Positions 12,160 through 30,881 of a stretch of 64,000 nt of DNA are shown in pieces. Source of the stretch: Bacillota bacterium (GTDB taxonomy: Bacteria; Sysuimicrobiota; Sysuimicrobiia; Sysuimicrobiales; Segetimicrobiaceae); the NCBI GenBank assembly GCA_021324255.1, contig JAJPJL010000070.1, forward strand, positions 1-64,000, in the 5' to 3' direction. The notes beneath the pieces are model-generated. The model saw nothing but the letters and a program-made list of their open reading frames with translations. It was not told the DNA's origin and did not search any database. Made by a program: the position numbers and the translations under genes. Every line of letters begins with the position of its first letter. Positions within the stretch are counted from its first letter, which is position 1.

Positions 12160-12924
12160 GTGACGGAAGATGCGCGGCGGCGTAACGAGGCCCGATTCGC
12201 GGAGACCGCCGCCAGCTACGCGGCCAGCCGGGCCGCCGCGCGCCTGGCGCAAAACGAGGCGCTGCACCGTCTCGCCGCGCCGCGTCCCGAGGATCGGGCA
12301 CTGGACGTGGCGTGCGGGCCCGGCACCCTGCTCGCGGCGCTCTCCCCTCGGGTGCGGGTGGCCATCGGGCTCGACGTAACGCCCGCGATGCTGCGGCAGG
12401 CCCGCGCCCGGCTTTCCGGCGCCGCCGCGCGGCTCGTGCGCGGCGCGGCCGAGCACCTGCCGTTTGCGGACGGATCCTGTTCGCTCGTGACCTGCACCTC
12501 GGCCATCCACCACTTTGGCGACGCCGCGCGGGCGCTCGGCGAAATGGCGCGGGTCTGCGCACCGGGCGGCCGGATGGTGATCGCGGACCTCGTCGGCGCC
12601 GAAGACGAGGACGTGCGCGCGCGGCAAAACGCGATCGAGCGGACGCGCGATCCCGCCCACGTCGAGCTGCGCAGCCCCCGCGGGCTCCTCGCGCTGCTCC
12701 AGGGGGTGGGCGTCGTGCCGCGCGAAACGGCCGCGGGCGCCGAGCCGCGCGAGCTCGAGGAGTGGTGTCGTATCGCCAATACACCGCCGGACGTCGCGCG
12801 GCGGGTCCGGGAGATGCTCCTCGCCTCCCAGCCCGGGGATTTGGCCGGCATGTCCCCGGTCCTCGCGAACGGGCAGGTCCGCTTCACTCACCGGTGGGCC
12901 GTGGTCGTCGCCGACCGGCGCTGA
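12160..12924 (+). CDS. Class I SAM-dependent methyltransferase, UbiE-like
   Basis: A 254-residue Rossmann methyltransferase. Motif I is LDVACGPGT near residue 48, post-I is GLDVTPAML, the motif II/III region is EHLPFADGSCSLVTCTSAIHHF, and the post-motif is GEMARVCAPGGRMVIADL. This pattern fits the Methyltransf_11/UbiE group acting on small molecules. The substrate-determining C-terminal cap is not diagnostic. It starts at GTG 12160, preceded by GAAGAAG. It stands alone between the secreted hypothetical and a convergent operon. Confidence 0.85.
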   Translation: MTEDARRRNEARFAETAASYAASRAAARLAQNEALHRLAAPRPEDRALDVACGPGTLLAALSPRVRVAIGLDVTPAMLRQARARLSGAAARLVRGAAEHLPFADGSCSLVTCTSAIHHFGDAARALGEMARVCAPGGRMVIADLVGAEDEDVRARQNAIERTRDPAHVELRSPRGLLALLQGVGVVPRETAAGAEPRELEEWCRIANTPPDVARRVREMLLASQPGDLAGMSPVLANGQVRFTHRWAVVVADRR

Positions 12925-13026: not shown

Positions 13027-13806
13027 TCACTGCGCGGTGTATCCTCCGTCGATGACCAGCGCGGAACCCATCGCCAGGATCGAGTCGTCGGACGCCAGGA
13101 ACAACGCGGCGCGCGCGACCTCCTCCGGTTTGGCAAACCGCCCGATGGGGCGCGCTTGCTCCGATCGACGGCGCGCCTCCGCGGGATCCGGGGATGCCGC
13201 CAGCACCTGTGCCGCGAACGGCGTGTCGGTTACGCCCGGGCAGATCGCGTTCACCCGGATGTTGAACGGCGCGCAGTCGATGGCCATTTGCTTGGTGAGA
13301 ATCAAGAGGCCGCCTTTCGAAGCGCAATAGGGAGCCGATCGAGGACTCCCCACGAAGCTCACCGTCGAGCCGGCGTTGATGATGCTCCCCCCGCCGGCGC
13401 GCTTCATGTGCGGAATGGCGTACTTCGAGCACAGGAACACGCTCTTGAGGTTGACGTCCATGACCAGGTCCCAGTCGTCCTCGGAGATCTCTTCCACGCC
13501 ACCGAGCCGAACGATGCCCGCGTTGTTGTAGAGGATGTCGAGCCGTTCGAACGCGTGGACCGTGGCGTCGACCATGGCCCGCGCCTCGGCGGCGACCCTC
13601 ACATCGGTCCGCACAAAGATCGCATCCCCTCCGGCGTCCCGGATTTCGCCGGCAATCGCCTCCCCGCCGTGAGCATCGATGTCCGCGACCGTGATCCTGG
13701 CCCCCTCCCGGGCAAAGAGCAGCGCCCCCGCCCGGCCGATGCCCGAGGCCGCGCCCGTGATGATCGCCACCTTGCCGTCGAGCCGCCGCCCTCCAGTCCC
13801 CGCCAT
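13027..13806 (-). CDS. SDR family oxidoreductase, end of the amino-sugar operon
   Basis: A 259-residue classical SDR with TGAASGIG near residue 18, NNAG, the catalytic Ser in GSTVSFVG, and YCASK. AAGGAGGG lies eight bases before ATG 13806. It ends in the family-typical MGSALVIDGGYTAQ. It is the last gene of the minus-strand sugar operon, 34 bases after the SIS gene, so it is probably a sugar or sugar-acid dehydrogenase of that pathway. The exact substrate is inferred only from context. Confidence 0.9.
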   Translation of the reverse strand: MAGTGGRRLDGKVAIITGAASGIGRAGALLFAREGARITVADIDAHGGEAIAGEIRDAGGDAIFVRTDVRVAAEARAMVDATVHAFERLDILYNNAGIVRLGGVEEISEDDWDLVMDVNLKSVFLCSKYAIPHMKRAGGGSIINAGSTVSFVGSPRSAPYCASKGGLLILTKQMAIDCAPFNIRVNAICPGVTDTPFAAQVLAASPDPAEARRRSEQARPIGRFAKPEEVARAALFLASDDSILAMGSALVIDGGYTAQ

Positions 13807-13840
13807 CTCGCCACCCTCCTTCCCGTGGATGCGCCCCACG

Positions 13841-14584
13841 CTACAGTCGTCGCAGCAATTCCATGTGCGCCTGGAACACCCGGTCGTTGTGCCCGGCATC
13901 CGGGTTTACGTTCGGCGAGACAAAGACGGGCGGGGTCAGGCCCCGCGACGCCAGGCGCCGCGCGACTTCCGCAACGACGGTCATCGTCACGATGACGACG
14001 GACGCCGTCGACGCGGCGGCGACCGGGTGCGCCCAGCCGTCGACGGCGACCAGCGCGTCTTCCGGCGGCACGCAGTTGTCGATGACGATGTCGGCGACGT
14101 CTCCGAGCTTGCGGCCCGACGAATGCGTGGCGATGGCGAGACGCTGATTCGCGACGCTGGTGACCGCCACGACGGTCGCGCCACGCGTCTTGGCGTACAG
14201 CGCCATTTCCACAGGCGCGGCGTTCAGCCCGCCGTGCGAAAAGACCCACATCGTATCGGCGGAGGTCACATGAAAGCTCCGCATGAGATGCTCGATGTAG
14301 CCTTCCCGGCGCTCGATCCAGAGCAGCTCGCGCGCCCCTCCGGGCCCCGTGGCGCCATGCCACAACAGGCGAGGATCGATGATCGGCACGAACCCCGCAA
14401 ACGAACCGTAGCGTGGGAAGATGTCCATGATCGGCAGGATGGAATGACCGCTGCCGAACAGGTAGACGGCGCGGCCGCCGGCAATCGAGGCCGCCATGAC
14501 ATCCGCGGCCTGCTGGATGACCGGCGCCTGCGTCCGGCCGATCGTCTCCACCACCCCAAGGATCTTGTCGATGTACGTCAGCAT
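13841..14584 (-). CDS. SIS-domain sugar-phosphate protein (UPF0309-like)
   Basis: A 247-residue single-SIS protein. The sugar-phosphate-binding loop is YLFGSGHSILPIMDIFPRYG near residue 41, followed by MWVFSHGGLNAAPVEMALYAK and VVAVTS. This is the pattern of the UPF0309 sugar-isomerase-domain proteins found in ABC sugar operons. SIS proteins isomerise, deaminate or de-etherify phosphosugars, or regulate their use. An AGGAGG lies just before ATG 14584. The position between a ROK kinase and an SDR supports a catabolic phosphosugar step. Confidence 0.85.
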   Translation of the reverse strand: MLTYIDKILGVVETIGRTQAPVIQQAADVMAASIAGGRAVYLFGSGHSILPIMDIFPRYGSFAGFVPIIDPRLLWHGATGPGGARELLWIERREGYIEHLMRSFHVTSADTMWVFSHGGLNAAPVEMALYAKTRGATVVAVTSVANQRLAIATHSSGRKLGDVADIVIDNCVPPEDALVAVDGWAHPVAAASTASVVIVTMTVVAEVARRLASRGLTPPVFVSPNVNPDAGHNDRVFQAHMELLRRL

Positions 14585-14601
14585 GATCTCCTCCTCTACC
14601 T

Positions 14602-15534
14602 CTAGGCCCTACCGTGACCGCGGGCCCGGTGGACGAGCGCCGCGGCGCCGAGGAAACTCGCGCGGGCGCCGAGCGCGGAGCGCCGGATCGGCACCTGCCG
14701 CGCCAGCGGCTGCGCGTACGTCCGGATCGCGGCACGGAGCGGTGCGAGCGGGAACCGCCCCGGCTGCATCACCCCGCCGCCGACGATGACGACGTCCGGG
14801 TCGAGCATGCTCACCACGTCGGCGACCGTAACGCCGATGAGCCGAGCCGTATCGTCGATGAGGGCCTGCGCGCGGCGGTTTCCTCGACGCGCCTCGGACA
14901 CGAGATCCTGGACGCTCGCCCCGGGAATGCGCGATTGCCTCATGCGACGCAGGATCGCGGGCCCGGCTACCGCCGACTCCAGCGCGCCGACGCGGGAGGC
15001 CGCCGCGGCGGCGTCCGTCCGGCCGCGCGCCCACCAGCCCACGGAGCCGGCGGCGCCGTGCGCCCCCGTCCAGAAATGGCCCTCCGTCATGAACCCGAGG
15101 CCGATACCGGTGCCGATGGTGAGGAACGCCGCGGACCGAACGTTGCGCGCCGCCCCGAGCCAGACCTCGCCCAACAACGATGTCAGCCGGTCGTCCCGTA
15201 CGACCGCGCGGAGTCCGGTGGTTCGGGTCAGATGGGCGCCGAGGGACACCCGGCGCCACCCCGGAAGGTTCGGCGCCCAGACCGTCCCGTCGGCCCGCAC
15301 CGCCCCGGGCACCGCCACGCCGAGCCCGGTGATCGTTGCGCCGGCCGGTGCGGCGCGCCTGAGCGACCGCACCAACTCGACGACCTGTGCCAGGACCTGC
15401 TCTCCACCGAGCGGGTCCGCGGGAACCGTGCGGGACTCGGGGACCTCGCCCCGCGGCCCGACCAGCCCGGCGAGGATCTTGGTCCCGCCGACGTCCACCG
15501 CGACCGCTATGCGACGTCCCGTCCCGGCCCCCAC
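14602..15534 (-). CDS. ROK-family sugar kinase without the usual zinc motif
   Basis: A 310-residue ROK protein with an N-terminal phosphate-1 motif (AVDVGGTKILAGLV), GLGVAVPGAV, and GTGIGLGFM with EGHFWTGAHG. A helix-turn-helix, which ROK repressors have at the N-terminus, is absent, so it is a kinase rather than a repressor. The CxCGxxGCxE zinc-binding motif is missing: the region reads AAGSVGWWARGRTDA and contains no Cys. GTG 15534 starts six bases after the PIG-L stop. Probable role: phosphorylation of an imported sugar or amino sugar. Confidence 0.87.
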   Translation of the reverse strand: MGAGTGRRIAVAVDVGGTKILAGLVGPRGEVPESRTVPADPLGGEQVLAQVVELVRSLRRAAPAGATITGLGVAVPGAVRADGTVWAPNLPGWRRVSLGAHLTRTTGLRAVVRDDRLTSLLGEVWLGAARNVRSAAFLTIGTGIGLGFMTEGHFWTGAHGAAGSVGWWARGRTDAAAAASRVGALESAVAGPAILRRMRQSRIPGASVQDLVSEARRGNRRAQALIDDTARLIGVTVADVVSMLDPDVVIVGGGVMQPGRFPLAPLRAAIRTYAQPLARQVPIRRSALGARASFLGAAALVHRARGHGRA

Positions 15535-15540
15535 GCGCCG

Positions 15541-16242
15541 CTACTTCGCGAATTGATTGTAGATCCGCATCCGCAGCGGCTCGGCGACCATGAAAGCCTG
15601 CGCGTACCGCACGCCGGCCTGGCATCCGCGCACGCGCGCCAACGAGGTGTAAAAGTCGCGGTAGGGAAACGCCGCGAGGTTTTCTCGCGCCAGGGCGTAC
15701 GCGTCCATGGCCTCGAGCCACTGCTCATACGTATCGCTGATGTCCTCGTAGTGTTGCGGCCGGAAGTCCACCGGATCTTCCCAGTTCTCGGGGAACCACA
15801 CCTCGCTCACGGCCCACGCGGGCCGCGCGCGCTGCACGCCGGGCAGGGCGGCGAAGAAGCAGCCGTCCATCACGAGCGCGTGGGCGGCACGGTGGTCCTT
15901 GTGCCAGCTCCCCTGCCAGTGCGTGAACACCAGGTCCGGGCGGAGCTCGCGGAGCAGATCGCAGACCGCCAGCTTGGCCTCGTCGTCGTCCGGCAGATGC
16001 GTGTCCTCGTACTCGAGCACCCGCACGGTCGCCCCGAGCACGGAGGCCGAGCGCTCCGCCTCGCCCTTCTTCTGGCCGGCATAGGCCCCGGTGCGCCCGC
16101 CGGCACGATACCCGCGCTCGCCGAGCGTCATGTGCACAATGGTGATTTCGCTGCCCCGGCGGCGGAGTTTGGCCAGCACGCCGCCGGCCGTGGCCTCCAC
16201 GTCGAACGCATGCGCCCCAAAGGCGACCACGCGCGATGCCAC
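15541..16242 (-). CDS. PIG-L family de-N-acetylase (atypical active site)
   Basis: A 233-residue LmbE/PIG-L protein, a metal-dependent deacetylase family acting on N-acetyl sugars. The zinc motif usually written AHPDDE reads AHAFDVE. The His and second Asp (metal ligands) are present, but the first Asp, the general base in MshB-like enzymes, is Phe. The later HWQGSWHKDHRAAH supplies the third metal His. The GTG at 16242 is chosen because AAGGAGG precedes it by eight bases. An ATG at 16272 overlaps the permease stop and would add ten residues. It lies between the sugar permeases and the ROK kinase. Confidence 0.88.
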   Translation of the reverse strand: MASRVVAFGAHAFDVEATAGGVLAKLRRRGSEITIVHMTLGERGYRAGGRTGAYAGQKKGEAERSASVLGATVRVLEYEDTHLPDDDEAKLAVCDLLRELRPDLVFTHWQGSWHKDHRAAHALVMDGCFFAALPGVQRARPAWAVSEVWFPENWEDPVDFRPQHYEDISDTYEQWLEAMDAYALARENLAAFPYRDFYTSLARVRGCQAGVRYAQAFMVAEPLRMRIYNQFAK

Positions 16243-16268
16243 CTCGCACGCCTCCTTGCCCCGATGTG

Positions 16269-17177
16269 TCATCCGCGCAGTCCGCTCATGATGACGCCGC
16301 GGATGTACGCGCGTTGTGCGAACGCAAAGACGACGATGGTCGGCAGCGATACCAGGAGCGCCGCCGCCATCAGCAACTCCATGTGGGGCACGCCCGCCCC
16401 GCCGGACCCGCCGCCGTAGAACGTCTTGAAGAAGCTGAGCCCGAGCGAGACGGGGAACTTTTGAATGCTGCTCAGGTAGATGAGCGGCCCGAAGAAGTCG
16501 TTCCACCGGCCGACGAAGGAGATCACCGCCACGGTGGTGACGGCGGCACGGGACAGCGGCAGCAGGATGCGCCAGTAGAATGTCATGGGCCCCGCGCCGT
16601 CGATCGTCGCGGCGTCCCGAAGATCGAGCGGGATGGTGAGGAAGAACTGCCGCAGCAGGAAGATGCTGAACGCGCTGTCCGCGAAGAACGCGGGCACGAT
16701 GAACGGCTTGTACGTATCGAGCCAGCCGAGGTACCGAAACACGATGTACATCGGAATCACGGTGACCTGCGACGGAATCATGAGCGTCGCGAGGACGATC
16801 AGGAACAGCAGGTTGCGCAGCGGGAAGCGGAAGAACGCAAACCCGTACGCGACGAGCGAGCACGAGAGGATCGTCCCCGCGGTCGGCACGAGCGTAATCA
16901 CGAGCGTGTTTACGAAGAATCGGTCGAACGGCACCGTCCCGCTCCACGCCTGCGCGTAGTTCCCCCAGGCGAAGGGCCGCGGGATCGCCTGCGGCGGGAA
17001 CGCGAAGACCTGGCCCGCCGTCTTGAGTGAGGTGGAGACGGCCCACAGGATCGGCAGCAGCACGACCGCCGCGCCCGCGGCGATCAGCGCGTAGTAGGCG
17101 ACCGGGCCCGCGGCCGCGCCGTAGCGAAGCCGGGACCCGCGGCGCACGCGCGTGAGCGGCGCGGCGAGCCCGCTCAT
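16269..17177 (-). CDS. Sugar ABC transporter permease, MalG type
   Basis: A 302-residue permease with about six membrane helices. It has the MalG-type N-terminal LWAVSTSLKT, the EAA loop DAATIDGAGPMTFYW...LPLSRA, and the C-terminal QRAYIRGVIMSGLRG. ATG 17177 overlaps the partner permease stop by 4 bases (ATGA). It belongs to the amino-sugar operon. No ATPase gene accompanies it. Confidence 0.94.
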   Translation of the reverse strand: MSGLAAPLTRVRRGSRLRYGAAAGPVAYYALIAAGAAVVLLPILWAVSTSLKTAGQVFAFPPQAIPRPFAWGNYAQAWSGTVPFDRFFVNTLVITLVPTAGTILSCSLVAYGFAFFRFPLRNLLFLIVLATLMIPSQVTVIPMYIVFRYLGWLDTYKPFIVPAFFADSAFSIFLLRQFFLTIPLDLRDAATIDGAGPMTFYWRILLPLSRAAVTTVAVISFVGRWNDFFGPLIYLSSIQKFPVSLGLSFFKTFYGGGSGGAGVPHMELLMAAALLVSLPTIVVFAFAQRAYIRGVIMSGLRG

Positions 17178-18070
17178 CCAGGTGTGGCCCCGCCCTCGTA
17201 GTAGACCCAGCGCTGCATGAGGCGAAACTGCACCCAGGTAAAGGCCAATAGCAGGAGCAGCATCACCCAGGCCATGGCGGCCGCGTAGCCCATCTGGAAG
17301 TACTGGAACCCGTTGCGGTAGAGATACAGCACGTAGACCAAGGTGGAGTCGGCCGGCCCGCCGTTCGTCACGATGTACGCGGGGGTGAAGACCTGAAAGG
17401 ACGCGATCACCCCGAGGACGAAGTTGAAGAAAATCACCGGCGACAGTAGCGGCAGCGTCACGTGCCATAGACGCCGTCCCCGCGACGCGCCGTCCAGCGC
17501 GGCGGCCTCGTGAAGTTCCTCGGGAATGCCCTGCAGCCCCGCAAGAAAAATGAGCATGCGGTTACCCCCGATCGTCCACAAGCCCATCAGGACGAGCGAC
17601 GGAAGCGCCCAGGTCGTGCTCTCCAGCCACGCCACCTGCGGCAACCCAAGCCGGGAGAGCAGGTAGTTGAGCAGGCCGAAGTGCGTGTTCAGGAGCCACG
17701 TCCAGATGATGGCCGTCGCCACCGTGGGCATCAACTCGGGTAGGTAAAACAACGCCCGCAAGACAGACACGGCCGGGACGCGCCGGTTCAACAACAGGGC
17801 GAGCGTGAGAGAACCGGCAAGGGACAGCGGCACGGTAAGCACCGTATACGCCAGCGTGTTGCGAAGCGCCATCCAGAACAATGGATCGTGCCACAGATTC
17901 GCGAAGTTGGCGAGTCCCACGTAGTGCGGCGCCGTGAGGATGTCCCACTTCGTCAGGCTCAGCACCAGGGAGATCGCCATGGGGCCGGCGGTGAACGCGC
18001 AAAACCCCAGGCCCCATGGCAGGATCAGCAGGAAGCCCGTCAGCGCCTCGCGCCGCGCCCGCGGCGTCAT
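17174..18070 (-). CDS. Sugar ABC transporter permease, MalF type
   Basis: A 298-residue permease. It begins MTPRARREALTGFLLILP at ATG 18070. The EAA loop is HEAAALDGASRGRRLWH...LPLLSP, and the C-terminal half contains TNGGPADSTLVYVLYLY, typical of the UgpA/MalF group. It lies 49 bases downstream of the binding-protein stop. The frame is open upstream but gives no family similarity there. Confidence 0.94.
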   Translation of the reverse strand: MTPRARREALTGFLLILPWGLGFCAFTAGPMAISLVLSLTKWDILTAPHYVGLANFANLWHDPLFWMALRNTLAYTVLTVPLSLAGSLTLALLLNRRVPAVSVLRALFYLPELMPTVATAIIWTWLLNTHFGLLNYLLSRLGLPQVAWLESTTWALPSLVLMGLWTIGGNRMLIFLAGLQGIPEELHEAAALDGASRGRRLWHVTLPLLSPVIFFNFVLGVIASFQVFTPAYIVTNGGPADSTLVYVLYLYRNGFQYFQMGYAAAMAWVMLLLLLAFTWVQFRLMQRWVYYEGGATPG

Positions 18071-18119
18071 CTCGGGCGCGGCCGTCCGGGAGGCGCAGCC
18101 CCCGTCACGGCGGCGCGCG

Positions 18120-19442
18120 TCAGTGCTGGAGCAGCGCGTCGATCTTGGCGCACGCCTCGCCCGTCGCGGCGGCGGGTGACTTCTGGCCCGTCCAGACCAG
18201 GTCCATCTCGCTCCCAAGCGTATCCACCATCTCCGCCCAGTGCGTCGTTCGCGGGTCGAGGCGGCCGTACGCGAGCGCGTCCACGAAGACCTTGCGGTGC
18301 AACGGCACCTTACCGGGAGCCAGGAACTCCGGCGACAGCGCCGCGGCACGGAGCGCCGGAATGATCAGCCCCAGGTGGGCCAGCTCCATCGTGTTGTCCG
18401 GCTGCGACAGGAATCGGATGAGCGTCCAGGCCTGATCGGGATGCGGCGCCTTCGCCGGGATCGCGTAGGCCCCGGTCGCGACGCGCGTGGATTGGATCGT
18501 GCCCTTGGGCAGCGGCGCCACGTCCCACGCGAACGTCTTGATCGCGCTTCCGGTCACGACGATATCCCAGTAACCGCTGGCCATCATGCCGATCTTCCCG
18601 TTGGCGAACAGGTTGGTCTGCTGCGCTTGGGACGGGAGAATCCCGGCGTGCTGCTTGAGAAGCAAGTCCTGCAGAAACGCGATGCCCCGGACCGCCGCGG
18701 GCCGATCCAGGCGGCACCTCGTGTTCGTCGGGTCGAGCACGTCGCCTCCAAAGCTGTACACGACGGGGAACAGCCCGAAGGGCATGTTGACCGGCGCGAC
18801 CGTGCCCCACTGGACGATGGCGTTCGGATTGAAGCCCGGCTGGTCCGCGCTCTTGCCGTTGCTGTCGCGCGTCAGCTTCTTCGCCACGGTCAAAAAGGTA
18901 TTCCATGTCCACTGGCCCGCGGCGTAATACTCGTTCGGGGTCCGTAGCCCGGCCTGCTTGAACATGTCGGCGTTGTAGTAGAGCGCGATCGACGATGTCT
19001 CGCGGGGCAGCGCATACAGTTTCCCGTGATCGGAGAATTGTTGAATCGCCGTCGGGAAGTACGCGCTCTTCGCGAGGCCGGCCTTGGCCAGATACGGATC
19101 GATGTCGAGCAGGAAGTGCTTCGCCAGCGCGGCCGGGAACCACGAGTAGTGGCCGTAGATCACGTCGGGGTAGTCTCCGCTGGCGGCGATGACCTGCACC
19201 TTCTGGAAGTACTCGGGGTCCGAGGAGGCCACGACCGTCTCCAGGTTGACCCTGATGTCCGGATGGGACTGTTCGAACTTGGACACCAGCCCCTGGTAGA
19301 GCTTCAGTTCGTTGGCTTCGCCCTGCCAGACCATCCGTATGGTGGTGACCTTCTGCGCCTGCGCGGGCGATCCGCCCCCGAGCGTCCACATCGTGCCGGC
19401 GAGGGCCGCCATCACGAGCACGCTGGTCCACTTGCTGCGCAT
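18120..19442 (-). CDS. Sugar ABC transporter binding protein (SBP_bac_1)
   Basis: A 440-residue family 1 extracellular binding protein. The signal peptide begins RSKWTSVLVMAALAGTMW and ends near SPAQAQ. The mature domain includes WQGEANELKLYQGLVSKFEQ, the hinge-side PDVIYGHYSWFPA, YALPRETSSIALYYN and FANGKIGMMASGYWD. ATG 19442 is preceded by AAGGAGGGG. It is the first transport gene after the UTRA regulator. The family binds mono- to oligosaccharides or glycerol phosphates. The linked PIG-L and ROK genes point to an amino-sugar-containing ligand. Confidence 0.95.
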   Translation of the reverse strand: MRSKWTSVLVMAALAGTMWTLGGGSPAQAQKVTTIRMVWQGEANELKLYQGLVSKFEQSHPDIRVNLETVVASSDPEYFQKVQVIAASGDYPDVIYGHYSWFPAALAKHFLLDIDPYLAKAGLAKSAYFPTAIQQFSDHGKLYALPRETSSIALYYNADMFKQAGLRTPNEYYAAGQWTWNTFLTVAKKLTRDSNGKSADQPGFNPNAIVQWGTVAPVNMPFGLFPVVYSFGGDVLDPTNTRCRLDRPAAVRGIAFLQDLLLKQHAGILPSQAQQTNLFANGKIGMMASGYWDIVVTGSAIKTFAWDVAPLPKGTIQSTRVATGAYAIPAKAPHPDQAWTLIRFLSQPDNTMELAHLGLIIPALRAAALSPEFLAPGKVPLHRKVFVDALAYGRLDPRTTHWAEMVDTLGSEMDLVWTGQKSPAAATGEACAKIDALLQH

Positions 19443-19529
19443 TCGATCCCCTCCTTCCGCAAACCGCGCCCTGCATACCGCCTGCGTGTGTCTACTAGCG
19501 TGCGTCGATGGCATCCCCCCCTCACGCGT

Positions 19530-20282
19530 CTAGAGCCGCGCCGCTTTGCGAATCAGTTCGAGCGTCAACTGCATCCGGTCGCCCCGGAGAATGGAGGTCA
19601 CGAACTCCACAGGGCGGTTGTCCGAATCGAACGTCGTGCGCTCGACCTCGAAGGCCGCGGTTCGTGTGGACGCCCTCAACGCCGCGGCGATCACGCGCCG
19701 CAGGACGATCGGCCGGTATACCTCCTGCGCGCGGACGATCTGGATGCCGTACTCCTGCTCCAGGATCCGGTACAGGGACTCCGTCGCCAGCCGGCTGGCA
19801 TCGATGCCGCCGAACCGCGATCCTGGCAGATACACGGTCTGGAGCGCCAGCGGCTCACCGTCCGCGAAACGGAGGCGCCTGATAGCGACGACGGCCTCGC
19901 TCGGGGACACCTGGAGCGCGTCGCGGATGCGCTCGCCGGCGGGGACCGTGCCGCTCTCCAAGATCCGGGAGGTCGTGGTGAGACCCCGCTGCGCCATCTC
20001 CTCCGTGAAGGAAACCAACTCGGACACCACGTGGGAGACACGCGGCGCCGCGACGAAGGTCCCGCGCCCGCGCGCCCGGTACAGCAACCCCTCGGCGACG
20101 AGCGCGGCCACGGCCTGGCGGACGGTGATGCGGCTGACGCGATACCGTGTGCACAGCTCGGATTCGGCCGGGATTCGTTGACCGGGACGCCACGCACCGC
20201 CATTGATCCCAGCGCGCAGCACTTCCCGCAACTGGTAATGGAGGGGCAACGGCGAGGTCCGCGAGATCGTGAGCGTCGGCAT
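19530..20282 (-). CDS. GntR-family regulator, HutC/UTRA subfamily
   Basis: A 250-residue regulator. The N-terminal winged helix (about 10-75) includes HYQLREVLRAGINGGAW and YRVSRITVRQAVAALVAEG. The C-terminal UTRA ligand domain (about 95-245) starts at ELVSFTEEMAQRG and contains LQTVYLPGSRF. UTRA members such as NagR sense phosphosugars or related metabolites. It heads the minus-strand sugar operon. An AT-rich promoter with an inverted repeat lies just upstream, consistent with autoregulation. ATG 20282 has no strong SD. Confidence 0.92.
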   Translation of the reverse strand: MPTLTISRTSPLPLHYQLREVLRAGINGGAWRPGQRIPAESELCTRYRVSRITVRQAVAALVAEGLLYRARGRGTFVAAPRVSHVVSELVSFTEEMAQRGLTTTSRILESGTVPAGERIRDALQVSPSEAVVAIRRLRFADGEPLALQTVYLPGSRFGGIDASRLATESLYRILEQEYGIQIVRAQEVYRPIVLRRVIAAALRASTRTAAFEVERTTFDSDNRPVEFVTSILRGDRMQLTLELIRKAARL

Positions 20283-20307
20283 CGGCTCGTCCTAGGTAGA
20301 TTAGATC

Positions 20308-20335
20308 ATTATATTGTTATATCATCATTAACAAT
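20308..20335 (-). promoter_or_regulatory. Promoter and inverted-repeat operator of the UTRA regulator operon
   Basis: On the minus strand TATAAT (20313-20308) is a consensus -10 box. TTGTTA (20334-20329) is a plausible -35 at a short 15-base spacing. ATTGTTA (20313-20319) and TAACAAT (20329-20335) form a perfect 7-bp inverted repeat with a 9-base spacer that covers both boxes. The predicted transcript start is about 20 bases before the regulator's ATG. The AT richness contrasts sharply with the surroundings. Confidence 0.6.
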
Positions 20336-20437
20336 TCCTGCTATGCTGCATCGTCCGCCAATCGTATGGTCTCCACGGTCTCTCCATCGGGCCGGCGCGG
20401 TAGGGATCGGCCCGGGCCGCGGCGGACCTAACAATGC

Positions 20438-20896
20438 ATGCGCACGTTGTTCGCTTCGATCCTGGCCGCCGGCTGCATCATGCTCAGCGCCGCGCCCGTC
20501 GCGCCGGCGGGGGCCGCGAGCGCCGCACCCGACTACTCGCCGCCCCCGGGCGCGTACAACCCCGCGGTCACGCAGGCCAACATCGACCGGACGATCTGCG
20601 TGCGCGGGTGGACCAAGACGGTACGCCCGCCGTACGAGTACACCGAACAGCTGAAGCGCGAGCAAATCAGGGCCCGGCATCTCCCCGGCGGCGTTCGCGT
20701 CTACCAGGAGGACCACTTCATCCCGCTCGAGCTGGGCGGGCACCCGACCGATCCCCACAACCTGTGGCCGCAGCCTCGCGACCAGGCCGAACGGAAAGAC
20801 CGGTGGGAGCTCCGCCTCAACCACGCCGTGTGCAGCGGCCGCATGTCGCTGGCCGACGCGCGCCGCAAAATCGCCGATCCCCGGCTGTGGCAGTAG
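20438..20896 (+). CDS. Secreted small protein with an HNH-like motif
   Basis: A 152-residue protein. A signal peptide covers about residues 1-26 (TLFASILAAGCIML, then APVAPAGAA). The mature part has two Cys (TICVRGW; AVCSGR) that may form a disulfide. The block EDHFIPLELGGHPTDPHNLWPQ, about residues 91-112, resembles the beta-beta-alpha metal core of HNH nucleases: His next to acidic residues, then GG, then NLW. This family recurs in soil bacteria and is uncharacterised as far as I know. It could be a secreted nuclease, though the C-terminal metal-ligand His is not obvious. Confidence 0.72.
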   Translation: MRTLFASILAAGCIMLSAAPVAPAGAASAAPDYSPPPGAYNPAVTQANIDRTICVRGWTKTVRPPYEYTEQLKREQIRARHLPGGVRVYQEDHFIPLELGGHPTDPHNLWPQPRDQAERKDRWELRLNHAVCSGRMSLADARRKIADPRLWQ

Positions 20897-20995
20897 ACCG
20901 GAAGGACCGGCCGAGCCCGCGGCAAACACAGCTGAGTTTCACCTTCGCCGCGCCGTGGAGCGCCGGTGGATCATCAAAGTGCAAAGGAGCCTGAC

Positions 20996-22093
20996 GTGAC
21001 CGACGACAGCGCGAAGCTCGTGGCCGTCAGTGAGGCGATCGACAGCCTCTGCACGATCGAGATCACAGGGCGCGGCGTCGTGGGCGCCCTCGCCGCCGCC
21101 GCGCGGGCGGCGCAGGGAGGCGCGCTCTGCCTGCGGGCGGCGCGGGAGCTCGCCCGCCGCGTACAGCCGGGCGATACGGTCGTCATCGCCACCGGCCTGC
21201 CTACGTATCCCTGGTTCTGCGGCGAGCAGGATGGTCCCGTCGGCGCGGCAACGCTCGCCCGGGCGTTGGTCCTCGGGCTCGCGGCGCGGCCGGTGATCGT
21301 CACGGAGGCGATCCACGTCGACATGTGCCGCGCCGCCGTGCGGGGCGCGGGGCTGTACGCCCGCGGCGTCGACGACGCGCTCCGGTTACCCACGACGGTC
21401 GGCGTGGTCGAGTTCCCGACCGACCCGGAGCGCGCGGACCGCGAGGCGACCCGCCTGCTCGAACGGCTCCGCCCCAAGGCCATGATCGCGATCGAGCGCC
21501 CGGGCGCGAACGAGCACGGCCATTACCACGCGTCCAAGGGCTATCGCCTGACCGATCACTGCGCCAAGATCGACGGCCTGTTTGCGCGCGGGAAGGCGGC
21601 CGGCGTCTACACGGTCGGCATCGGGGACGGCGGGAACGAGCTCGGCTGCGCCGTGATCAGAGACACGGTGGTGGCGAGGGTCCCGTACGGGGCCAAGTGC
21701 CAGTGCCCCTGCGCCGGCAGCGTCGTCCCGGCGTTCGTCCCCGACCATCTCGTCATCGCAGCGATCTCCAACTGGGGCGCGTACGGCATCGAGGCGGCGC
21801 TGGGTCTCGTGCTGGAGCGCCGGGAGCTTGTGCACGATCGTGACCTCGACCGCCGCGTGCACGAGCTGTGCGCGGCCGCCGAGGCGAACAACAACGGCCC
21901 CGGCCTGCTCGACCCCGGGACCGACGCCGTGCCCACGGAGGTGCACGGGGATTTCGTGAGACTGCTCGGCTTCATGATTCAGAGCGGCATCGATTTCGGT
22001 CGCCTGTACAAGGAGCCGCGGTACCCCTGGCTCCGTCACGTGGAAGCGCCGTCCGGGCGATCGCCGGCGCAGCGGGAGGACATCCCGCGATGA
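20996..22093 (+). CDS. DUF4392 protein, D-glutamate cyclase-like
   Basis: A 365-residue protein matching the C-terminal domain of D-glutamate cyclase (GLUCM/DUF4392). Hallmarks are GLPTYPWFCGEQDGPVG, the AIERPGANEHGHYHASKG segment, the core GIGDGGNELGCA, and SNWGAYGIEAAL. The vertebrate enzyme interconverts D-glutamate and 5-oxo-D-proline; bacterial members are largely uncharacterised. The GTG at 20996 is chosen because AAGGAG stands six bases before it, although the frame is open 30 bases further up. The stop overlaps the next ATG by 4 bases, so this and the PLP-enzyme gene form a coupled pair. Confidence 0.85.
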   Translation: MTDDSAKLVAVSEAIDSLCTIEITGRGVVGALAAAARAAQGGALCLRAARELARRVQPGDTVVIATGLPTYPWFCGEQDGPVGAATLARALVLGLAARPVIVTEAIHVDMCRAAVRGAGLYARGVDDALRLPTTVGVVEFPTDPERADREATRLLERLRPKAMIAIERPGANEHGHYHASKGYRLTDHCAKIDGLFARGKAAGVYTVGIGDGGNELGCAVIRDTVVARVPYGAKCQCPCAGSVVPAFVPDHLVIAAISNWGAYGIEAALGLVLERRELVHDRDLDRRVHELCAAAEANNNGPGLLDPGTDAVPTEVHGDFVRLLGFMIQSGIDFGRLYKEPRYPWLRHVEAPSGRSPAQREDIPR

Positions 22094-23172
22094 CCCGGCC
22101 CGCCTACACCGCCGACGACCTGCGCGCGCGCATCGCCGCGCTTGCGCGCGTGCGGCTCGGATTTCTCCCGACGCCGGTCCAGCGCTGCGCCAACCTCTCC
22201 GCGGATCTCGGGGTGGATCTGTGGGTGAAGCGCGACGATCTCACGGGGCCGGCGTTCGGCGGCAACAAGATGCGCAATCTCGAATGGCGCATGGCCGAGG
22301 CGCAGGCGTCGGGCGCCGATATCCTGGTGTTCGGCGTCGAGGCGACGTCCAACTCCGCGCGACAGACGACCGCCGCGGCGAACATGCTCGGGTTGCCGCT
22401 CGTGCTCGTGCTGCGCGGCCGCCCCGACACGGAGGTCCAGGGCAACCTCTTGTGCGACCTCGTGCTGGGCGCAGAGGTGCGCCTGCTCGACCTGCCGAGC
22501 TATCACGATCTCGGCCGCGCCGCAGCGGAGGTGGCGGACGAGCTCCGCGCTCAGGGGCGGCGGCCGTGGAGCCTCAATCACGGCAAGATGTTCGAGGTGG
22601 GCGCCGCCCTTGCGACCGTCGAGAACTTCCTCGAGATCCTGGACCTGCTTGCGCCGCACGGCCGCCGCCCGGACGCGATCTATATCTCCTCGGGCGGCAA
22701 GGGGCTGGCCGGCCTCGCGCTGGCCAACAAGGCCCTCGGGCTGCACGTGCGCGTGGTCGGCGTGTCGTGCACGACCAACGAAGACCCCTGGCGGTACGCC
22801 GCCGACACCGCCAACGCGGCGGCGGCGGTGCTCGACCTCGCCGTCACGGTGTCCCCTCAGGAGATCGAGGCCACGTACGACTACATCGGTCCGGGCTACG
22901 GCATCCCGACGCCGGAGGGGCTCGACGCCATCCTCGCGTTTGCGCGCCGCGAGGGGATCATGCTCGATCCCGTGTACACGGGCAAGGCCGCCGCGGGCCT
23001 GCTGGACCACATCCGCCGGGGGATCGTGCCCCGGGGCAGCACCGTGGTTTTCATTCACACTGGCGGCCAGCCGGCGTTGTTTGCCCAGAGCGAGGCGATC
23101 GCCCGCCACATCCAGCGGCGCCGGGCCGGCGCCGCCCGGGCCACGGAGGCGCGCGCGTTCCCCACTGGGTGA
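22090..23172 (+). CDS. PLP enzyme, D-cysteine desulfhydrase/ACC deaminase family
   Basis: A 360-residue fold-type II PLP protein. The Schiff-base lysine is in GGNKMRNLEW (near residue 61). The substrate-recognition loop reads EATSNSARQT, with Ser where ACC deaminase has His. The phosphate-binding loop is SSGGKGLAGLAL rather than the common SGGTxAGL. The C-terminal part has FIHTGGQPALFAQ, typical of D-cysteine desulfhydrases. It acts on a small, often D-configured, amino acid to give a 2-oxo acid plus ammonia. Coupling to the DUF4392 gene suggests a D-amino-acid pathway. Confidence 0.87.
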   Translation: MTRPAYTADDLRARIAALARVRLGFLPTPVQRCANLSADLGVDLWVKRDDLTGPAFGGNKMRNLEWRMAEAQASGADILVFGVEATSNSARQTTAAANMLGLPLVLVLRGRPDTEVQGNLLCDLVLGAEVRLLDLPSYHDLGRAAAEVADELRAQGRRPWSLNHGKMFEVGAALATVENFLEILDLLAPHGRRPDAIYISSGGKGLAGLALANKALGLHVRVVGVSCTTNEDPWRYAADTANAAAAVLDLAVTVSPQEIEATYDYIGPGYGIPTPEGLDAILAFARREGIMLDPVYTGKAAAGLLDHIRRGIVPRGSTVVFIHTGGQPALFAQSEAIARHIQRRRAGAARATEARAFPTG

Positions 23173-25002: not shown

Positions 25003-25431
25003 ATGATTGTGCGTCCCATCACGACCGTGCTCGGCACCGCGCTCGGCGTGGCCGTTCTGGGCGTCGTGCTGACGCCCGGGTCCGCGTGGCCGGCGGGGAT
25101 ATCCGCCCACGCGCGGTCGATCGTCGCGTCCCCCTCCGCCGCGTTCAGCGGCGGCTTGGTCGCGATGGCCGTCGTGCTGACCGGCCTGGAAATCCTGCGC
25201 CAGCGGCACCGCGGCGCGCGCGCCCGACAGGCCCGGCGTGCACGGGCGCTCCCGGGGCCGGGCCTCGCGATGCCCCGGCGCGCCGCCTGGCCCGCGGCGC
25301 GCGACCCGGACACGTCCCCCTCACGACGCGGATGGGAATGGCTCCCTGCGCTCGGCAATCGCGGCCAACGCGCTGAGCAGCAGCCGCGCGGCGGTGCGGG
25401 AGGTCACTTCCGCCCAATCGTACGGTGGTGA
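25003..25431 (+). CDS. Possible small membrane protein (hypothetical)
   Basis: An open frame of 142 codons from ATG 25003. The first about 70 residues have two hydrophobic segments (IVRPITTVLGTALGVAVLGVV and FSGGLVAMAVVLTGLEILR) and a codon pattern like real genes here. The last third is Arg/Pro-rich and overlaps the 3' end of the agmatinase gene by 111 bases. No SD is visible. The first part may be real and the tail may reflect a lost stop. Confidence 0.35.
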   Translation: MIVRPITTVLGTALGVAVLGVVLTPGSAWPAGISAHARSIVASPSAAFSGGLVAMAVVLTGLEILRQRHRGARARQARRARALPGPGLAMPRRAAWPAARDPDTSPSRRGWEWLPALGNRGQRAEQQPRGGAGGHFRPIVRW

Positions 25432-26278
25432 CACCTCGACGAGATCCAACCCGATGACGCGGCATCGGCTCGCGATGGCACGGACGGCGTCGCGCAGTTC
25501 CGCGTAGGTCAACCCGCCCGGCTCCGGCGTGCCGGTGCCGGGCGCCGTTGCGATATCGAGCACGTCGATATCGATGCTGAGGTAGCACGCGGCCCCCGGC
25601 GGCACGACCGCGGCGGCGGCGTCCGGGCCGCCGCGGCGCAGTTCGGTGGCGGACACCGCCCGAACCCCGTAGGCGGCCGCGGCCTCCAGGGGCTCCGCGT
25701 ACTTTTGCAGGGCGCGGAGGCCGAGCTGCGAGATTCCCGCGACGAACGGCAGCTCGGAGACGCGGCGCATGACGTTGCCGTGTCCGAACCGGGTCCCCTG
25801 CCGTTCGTCCACGAAATCTTGATGCGTGTCGAGCTGGACGACGTGCACCGGCCCGCGGTCCGCGAAGGCCCGCAGCACCGGAAACGTGATCGCGTGATCG
25901 CCGCCCACAACGACCGGCAGGCTGCCGTCCGCCAGGATCTCCGCCGCCGCGGCGGTGATCCGGTCCAGGTTGCCGGGGATCTCCGCCGGCGCGATCTCGA
26001 CATCGCCCCAATCGGCCATCGTCACGCCCCGCAGGATCCAGCGGCGCAGGTCGAGATCGTACCAACCCCCCGCGGCCACATCGTCGCGGGAGCGGTAGGA
26101 CCACCACATTGACGCGGCGCGGACCGCGGCCGGGCCAAACCGCGCCCGCCCGCAGCGTGGTCCCGAGATCGAACGGCATGCCGAGGAACGCCACGTCCGT
26201 CTTGACGTCGCGGCTGGGATCGCGCGGCGGCGCCCCGAAGAACGTCGGGAACCGGGCGCGGGAAGCGGCGTCGCTCAC
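25321..26278 (-). pseudogene. Agmatinase/arginase-family ureohydrolase with 2-base frameshift
   Basis: Two adjacent frames together make one ureohydrolase of about 319 residues. The N-terminal part starts at GTG 26278, with AAGGAGG eight bases upstream, and runs through TDVAFLGMPFDLGTTLRAGA. The rest is in another frame from MWWSYRSRDD onward. Loss of two bases in a GC run around 26141-26147 restores neither frame alone, and adding two gives a length divisible by three. Manganese motifs are intact: GGDHAITFPVL, QLDTHQDF (DxHxD) and SIDIDVLD. The family hydrolyses agmatine, guanidinobutyrate or similar compounds to urea. It is either a true recent pseudogene or a sequencing error. Confidence 0.8.
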
Positions 26279-29393: not shown

Positions 29394-30881
29394 TCACACG
29401 GCCCTCCGGTAGACCTCGGGCGCCGGCTCGAACGTCACCGCGTCGTCCAGCGGAAACATCGGCCGGCGGCACACGCGGTGTCCGAGGGATCGCAGGTCGG
29501 CGCTCGTCGATCCCGGCGCGTCGATGTTGAAGGTTGTTTGCGCCCACGCGTCAAACATGTGGTATTCGCAGTACGGCGACTTCACGACCGTCAGATGGTA
29601 GTCTTGCGGGTTCCGGCCGTGCGCGAGGAACATCGCCCGGTCGAAGAGGCTGACCGGACGGCTCATCGCGAGGATCGTAACGCACCCGGCCCTGAGCACG
29701 GCGGTGGGGCCCGCATCGAGCGCGCCCCCGCTCGTCTCCAGCACGGCGCGGCCGCGCGACAGCATGTCCACCTCAACGGTCATCTCCAGCGGCGTAAACC
29801 GCGGGTCGCGCGCGCCGCCGAGCCGCACCGTGATCGTCGCGCCGACCCCGGCCCGCACGGCGGCGGCCGCCGCGGGCGGATCCACGATCGGCACCAGGAC
29901 GGGCTTCTCGTAGCCGGCGCGGAGCAGCGCGTGGAGAATGACGTTGCTGTCGCCGGTGGCGCCGGATGAGGTCGCATCCGCGGCGTCGGTGAAGATCACG
30001 GGGCCGGTCATGCCCCGCGCCTGCGCGATGGCCCGGTCGAGCGGGATGAGCCTGGCCTGCATCCGAGCGCGCTGCGCCCAAAACTCCCGGGCCAGGCGGA
30101 CCGCGTGCGCGGCGGCCGCCTCGCCATCCTCGGCCACGACGACCGTCTGGCTGCACAACTCCGGCACGTCCGTGAACGGGTTGCCGATCAGGACGGCGGC
30201 CGCGTGCGCCGCGCCTTCCCGCTCGAGGCGCTGCGCTTCGCGGACCACGTCGCCGTAACAGCCAGACTTGGTGATGAGCTCATCCCCGCGGACGAGCGCG
30301 GGAATCGCGACCCTGGCCATCGCCGGGGGACGCCGCCGCGCGAGGACCCGGAGCAACAGGCCCGCCGCGCGCGCGCCGGTGTCCGCGAAGTCGACATGCG
30401 GGTAGGTCTGATACGCGGCCACGCCGTCGATGGCGCGGAGCATCCGCGCCGTGAGGATACCGTGCAGGTCCAACGAGATGACGATCGGGACACCGTCACC
30501 GACGAGCCGGCGGGTCTCCTCGAGCAGGGCGCCCTCCGGATCGAGCTCGCCGTCCGCCGCCATCGCGCCGTGGAGCGAGAAATATACGCCGTCCACGCGG
30601 CGTGCGTGCTCGGCCACGGCGTCCAGCACCTCGCCGGACAGCCGGCGCCAGCCCGCTTGCGAGAGCATGCCCGCGCTCGTCGCCCGGGCGCCGTACGCCG
30701 GGACCACCTCGACGTCCCCGCGCGCCTCCAGGACGGCGACGGCGCCGGCGACCGCCGTGTTGCGGCCGCGCTGGTCGGCCACCGCGTCCCCGCGGCGCAC
30801 GGTGAAGTCGGCGTACTCCGTCGGCACCGGGTTGAACGACGAGATCTCCTGAGCACACTCCACCACGAGCACCTTCGGCAC
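29394..30881 (-). CDS. M81 family metallopeptidase, MlrC-like
   Basis: A 495-residue protein of the family named for microcystinase MlrC, zinc-dependent and acting on linear peptides or other amides. It begins PKVLVVECAQEISSFNP (the common ExSFSP variant). The probable metal sites are SLHGAMAADGELDPEG and SLDLHGILTARM, with QTYPHVDFADTG following. The MlrC C-terminal domain occupies about residues 310-490. The start is GTG 30881. It is divergent from the VOC gene across a 142-base gap. Confidence 0.9.
   Translation of the reverse strand: MPKVLVVECAQEISSFNPVPTEYADFTVRRGDAVADQRGRNTAVAGAVAVLEARGDVEVVPAYGARATSAGMLSQAGWRRLSGEVLDAVAEHARRVDGVYFSLHGAMAADGELDPEGALLEETRRLVGDGVPIVISLDLHGILTARMLRAIDGVAAYQTYPHVDFADTGARAAGLLLRVLARRRPPAMARVAIPALVRGDELITKSGCYGDVVREAQRLEREGAAHAAAVLIGNPFTDVPELCSQTVVVAEDGEAAAAHAVRLAREFWAQRARMQARLIPLDRAIAQARGMTGPVIFTDAADATSSGATGDSNVILHALLRAGYEKPVLVPIVDPPAAAAAVRAGVGATITVRLGGARDPRFTPLEMTVEVDMLSRGRAVLETSGGALDAGPTAVLRAGCVTILAMSRPVSLFDRAMFLAHGRNPQDYHLTVVKSPYCEYHMFDAWAQTTFNIDAPGSTSADLRSLGHRVCRRPMFPLDDAVTFEPAPEVYRRAV

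Follow-up and report, generated by a model that had tools for sequence, protein, structure and literature searches.

We propose that eight consecutive genes in the 64,000-nucleotide stretch of DNA analysed here (the window) form an operon for the import and breakdown of one carbohydrate, in which a ROK kinase would pass a phosphosugar to a SIS-fold protein, together with an NAD-type SDR oxidoreductase and an unusual metalloenzyme of the PIG-L fold; judging from the sequences, we put the probability of this reading at about one half. All eight genes lie on the minus strand between positions 13,027 and 20,282, and a check of the open reading frames found them in the order and at the coordinates given in a preliminary description of the same DNA, each with a Pfam profile match above cut-off. 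In the direction of transcription, the features are:

20299..20337, minus strand: putative operator and promoter, read directly as a TTGTTA-N9-TAACAA inverted repeat running into TATAAT
19530..20282, minus strand: GntR-family regulator with a UTRA ligand domain, the first gene (Pfam GntR 65.9 bits, UTRA 130.6 bits)
18120..19442, minus strand: family 1 extracellular solute-binding protein (SBP; Pfam SBP_bac_1)
17174..18070, minus strand: MalF/UgpA-type permease (Pfam BPD_transp_1; UgpA model 132 bits, below cut-off)
16269..17177, minus strand: MalG/UgpE-type permease (Pfam BPD_transp_1; UgpE model 156 bits, below cut-off)
15541..16242, minus strand: PIG-L/LmbE-fold metalloprotein of the D1-less subfamily described below, motif AHAFDVEA (PF02585 84.1 bits against a gathering score of 28.2)
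14602..15534, minus strand: ROK-family sugar kinase of a zinc-less GSxGW subfamily (PF00480 160 bits)
13841..14584, minus strand: SIS-fold protein, UPF0309 (sugar isomerase domain-containing), RYGS group (NF002805 260.7 bits against a cut-off of 135)
13027..13806, minus strand: SDR oxidoreductase with an NAD-type site (VADID) and a YCASK catalytic motif (PF13561 222 bits)

The intergenic spacing runs from -4 to about 87 bases, with a 4-base overlap between the MalF-type and MalG-type genes, and both the ribosome-binding sites and the overlaps fit a single operon. The SBP starts at the ATG at 19442 after AAGGAGG, with an alternative ATG upstream at 19514, and the PIG-L protein at a GTG (16242) that also follows AAGGAGG, with an alternative ATG at 16272. 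Because the flanking genes on both sides (12160-12924 and 20438-20896) lie on the opposite strand, the block is a self-contained unit. The SBP and the two permeases make up a carbohydrate ABC importer set; the operon holds no ATPase gene. The core of the putative operator and promoter is nearly identical in a same-genus genome and partly kept in genome G018. Upstream of the regulator, the segment TGTTAAT.ATGA.ATAACAATATAAT is likewise kept in the former and partly in the latter. Beyond the operon, the window carries a D-glutamate cyclase-like gene (PF14336) and after it a PLP-dependent gene (20966-23172), the latter resembling D-cysteine desulfhydrase/ACC deaminase and giving no Pfam match at the coordinates tried, an arginase-family gene near agmatinase that scores below cut-off (25321-26109; 150 versus 174 bits), and an MlrC/M81 metallopeptidase-family gene (29394-30881).

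The same gene order, with eight of eight genes, recurs in a congeneric genome (L017; 90-97% identity) and in a genome of a second family within the order (L022; 57-74% identity), which indicates that the adjacency of the genes is more than chance. The operon is conserved in three genomes of two families, and the claim of a single uptake and catabolism operon made in the preliminary description is borne out, as is the conservation of the PIG-L gene with the operon, on which that description had made its reading depend: the gene stays in place in both other genomes. The public collection's same-genus genome is a metagenome assembly from Centralia, classed as Bacillota. A search of 100 genomes placed a close PIG-L ortholog in these two other genomes only, so that the operon is conserved but patchy; a scan of a genome collection with the window PIG-L protein returned a single ortholog, the rest being distant canonical homologues.

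Characterised enzymes of the LmbE superfamily share the motif HXD1D2 and a further His, with D1 acting as the general base in every one of them, and an Arg is also important (R53 in BshB, R68 in MshB; reviewed in PMC4101496). The window protein reads H21-A-F23-D24 ... H124-K-D-H127. In the alignment, the metal ligands H21, D24 and H127 are retained and invariant, the general-base Asp is replaced by Phe (F23), and the substrate Arg is replaced by Lys (K68). These two substitutions leave the de-N-acetylase label of the preliminary description unsupported; the label is unsafe, though not disproved, and a residue other than D1 could serve as the base. The change is a property of a subfamily: a profile search of 386 genomes recovered six members, the window protein included, at E < 1e-65, with the next matches only at 1e-33, and a seventh is encoded on a Paenibacillus plasmid. 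D1 is missing in all seven, which have F, M or G there, and is D in all canonical (non-GalB) homologues sampled. The phylum of the member in genome G307 comprises two genomes in the collection and added nothing to this sample. In the tree, the subfamily is monophyletic (support 100/97), and GalB-type proteins, which also lack D1 and one of whose genes adjoins an oxoadipate aldolase gene, share a weakly supported clade with it (71/87) as its possible sister. Among solved proteins, the Paenibacillus member matches GalB best (E 3.9e-17). An AlphaFold2 model of the window protein, built on a shallow alignment, had a mean pLDDT of 48.7 and was left out of the fold search.

The pathway that the preliminary description had read from these genes, in which an N-acylated amino sugar is imported, de-N-acetylated by PIG-L while still free, phosphorylated by ROK, deaminated or isomerised by SIS and oxidised by SDR, is in our view unlikely, and its order of steps is not readable from the genes. 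It draws on the closest solved relatives of the window PIG-L protein, the deacetylases BshB1 and Dac (diacetylchitobiose deacetylase), on SIS relatives that adjoin nagA or nagB in Martelella, Priestia and Rhizobium, and on Thermococcus, where a PIG-L deacetylase is followed by a glucosaminidase and a GlcN-6P deaminase. The changes at D1 and the conserved Arg argue against it, as do a ROK protein without the residues of known GlcNAc/ManNAc kinases and the failure of UPF0309 proteins from outside the Streptomycetaceae in a GlcNAc-6P dehydratase assay (PMC12680351), a result that concerns dehydration and not deamination. As to an amino-sugar substrate more generally, some SIS and PIG-L relatives do lie beside nagA, nagB, murQ or anmK, but the atypical ROK and SIS proteins give no direct evidence for it and the best solved relative of the binding protein binds arabino-oligosaccharides. 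The absence of NagA, NagB and glycosidase genes noted earlier is true within the operon; in the genome (3.7 Mb, 95% complete; the window comes from its contig C34), however, NagA is encoded on contig C33. There, a locus at C33:58000-77900 (L152) combines MurQ (TIGR00274, 343 bits) with NagA, a BadF-type kinase, a beta-lactamase-family protein and an Opp-type transporter, and is an N-acetylmuramic acid recycling locus. Hexameric NagB was not found in the genome; its only PF01182 match was considered for this role and rejected as a 6-phosphogluconolactonase.

Outside this operon, D1-less PIG-L genes lie mostly beside AnmK or MurQ genes of N-acetylmuramic acid recycling. The Paenibacillus gene has murQ, anmK, a GNAT gene, a DUF1343 gene and a BadF-type kinase gene as neighbours. 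In two low-GC genomes of 1.8-1.9 Mb (G119 and G261), a UTRA regulator and AnmK precede the PIG-L gene and an Opp transporter follows it, the SBP of which is 60% identical to the Opp SBP of the murQ/nagA locus on contig C33 of the genome that holds the window. The G307 gene is not in a sugar operon, and its contig starts just ahead of it. These neighbourhoods, an association and not proof of a cell-wall-sugar role, together with the placement of NagS near MurQ in the NagS paper (PMC12680351), point to another reading, in which the operon would handle MurNAc, anhydro-MurNAc or a derivative, the PIG-L protein trimming or hydrating it and the SIS protein acting as a MurQ-like eliminase. We give this reading a low probability: the contexts number only two independent ones, the SIS-ROK cluster of G119 and G261 stands apart from their AnmK-PIG-L unit, the window operon contains neither AnmK nor MurQ nor a transporter for muropeptides, and the genome is already equipped with the murQ/nagA locus. 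We speculate, tentatively and with the odds against it, that the D1-less subfamily comprises metal-dependent hydratases or lyases of carbohydrate and cell-wall-sugar catabolism, which would here work alongside a ROK kinase of the zinc-less type and a SIS protein of UPF0309 in a phosphosugar pathway without NagA, NagB or MurQ.

The proposed ROK-to-SIS pathway draws on the kinase and its partner. The window ROK protein keeps the catalytic Asp and a later Glu, reads GSVGW in place of GExGH, with S and W at the Glu/His pair, and lacks the zinc cysteines. The Glu/His pair of ExGH belongs to the sugar-site residues of ROK proteins, and the sugar site of the window protein is predicted to differ from those of known glucose and N-acetylhexosamine kinases. 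SIS-linked ROK proteins from several unrelated genomes likewise have GSxGW or close variants, without the ExGH pair and the Cys zinc site, and fall on one side of the tree (99/95) with the sole exception of the Persicobacter protein, whereas all sampled ROK proteins without SIS linkage are canonical and keep both. (In this tree the row named free_L085 and L060 are one locus, which is SIS-linked.) The shared type and position mark kinase and SIS protein as a recurrent pair. One unrelated genome (L059, 5328-8018) has a UPF0309 SIS gene and a GSIGW-type ROK gene and, on the opposite strand, a convergent PIG-L gene of the canonical type (HPDD).

The window SIS protein matches NagS (SCO4393) distantly (E 1.2e-26), keeping H53, R64, E94, D179 and N228 and having Leu for S91, Gly for S121 and Tyr for A65. 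The NagS paper describes the GlcNAc-6P dehydratase clade as one of Streptomycetaceae with identity of 58.7% or more, and reports no useful GlcNAc-6P dehydration by UPF0309 homologues from elsewhere (25.7-35.7% identity; PMC12680351). Given the residue changes and these negative assays, we reject NagS function for the window protein; a literature search under the term UPF0309 returned nothing. Some SIS relatives have a mannose-type PTS but no ROK gene as a neighbour (L056), others a ROK gene, in most cases along with transporters (L055, L057, L135 and L143), which fits a SIS protein acting on the product of phosphorylation, and the chemistry of the window SIS protein is most likely a phosphosugar reaction. 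In Persicobacter, GntR, SDR, ROK and SIS genes are consecutive and in three further genomes an SDR gene adjoins the SIS gene, so that the SDR is a recurrent partner too. The window SDR scores 252.8 bits against a glucose 1-dehydrogenase subfamily model (NF005559, cut-off 215); the family is too broad for assigning a reaction. Further UPF0309 neighbourhoods are nucleoside and sugar-acid clusters. In two unrelated genomes, a GH42-type glycosidase gene lies directly 3' of the SIS gene (L055, 8232-10433; L057, 9289-11454), that of L055 being split over two reading frames.

An operon for a neutral sugar (an oligosaccharide of the arabino or galacto type, or a sugar acid), with a PIG-L function that would have nothing to do with N-acyl groups, we regard as quite improbable. 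The nearest solved relative of the SBP, the arabino-oligosaccharide-binding protein 6rjy (E 1.7e-34), is weak evidence on the ligand, which sequence similarity among SBPs predicts poorly. A GH42 enzyme occurs in related SIS-ROK clusters, yet the window operon contains no glycosidase; a Listeria SIS relative is in a cluster with PTS, phosphotriesterase-family and KDGP-aldolase genes, yet other SIS relatives adjoin nagA.

For the ROK-to-SIS pathway that we prefer, we infer the reactions, their order and the substrate as follows. The GntR-UTRA protein would sense a sugar phosphate or a pathway intermediate and control the single promoter. The SBP/MalF/MalG importer would take up the sugar with an ATPase supplied in trans, and the atypical ROK kinase would phosphorylate it. 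The UPF0309 SIS protein would act on the resulting phosphosugar by isomerisation or C2/C3 elimination, and the NAD-type SDR would oxidise a hydroxyl. The D1-less PIG-L protein would contribute a metal-dependent step to this pathway, and a classical N-deacetylase is less likely than a hydratase, a lyase or a hydrolase of another kind. Overall, the pathway reading of the preliminary description is partly supported. Beyond a possible new sugar route behind the operon, PIG-L proteins are routinely annotated as deacetylases, a name that cannot safely be given automatically to proteins without the catalytic Asp. In addition, the ROK-SIS pairing makes UPF0309 accessible to tests; in this widespread SIS family a single activity has been characterised, that of NagS, and it was reported as confined to Streptomycetaceae (PMC12680351).

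Several known systems share parts with this operon. In the chitin catabolism of Thermococcus kodakarensis (Dac TK1764, GlmA TK1754, GlmD TK1755), a PIG-L enzyme deacetylates diacetylchitobiose, cleavage follows, and GlcN-6P is later deaminated; TkDAC is an LmbE member (PMC4101496). Deacetylation before phosphorylation, which had been put forward as a distinct order, is therefore not new. This system resembles the window operon in its proposed ABC-type import, its PIG-L-family enzyme and its sugar-phosphate deamination. However, Dac keeps the general-base Asp that the window PIG-L protein lacks, T. kodakarensis has a chitinase and a glucosaminidase whereas the window operon has neither, and the window SIS protein, unlike that system, is a single-domain UPF0309 protein. 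GalB, the 4-oxalomesaconate hydratase (PDB 5cgz), has the PIG-L fold without D1 (HSAD), but it is a hydratase and not a deacetylase, and its gallate ring-cleavage pathways contrast with the sugar operon of the window. The BshB/MshB deacetylases have the same fold and metal triad, whereas the window protein scores below their curated cut-offs and has D1 and the conserved Arg changed. NagS belongs to the same UPF0309 SIS family as the window SIS protein but differs in active-site residues. The Nag pathway (NagK/NagE, NagA, NagB) and MurQ/AnmK recycling are alike in kinase and SIS-type chemistry, but none of their enzymes is encoded in the window operon, nagA residing in the murQ locus of the genome. 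The architecture of the operon is ordinary, while its PIG-L, ROK and SIS enzymes all depart, by their residues, from their textbook relatives.
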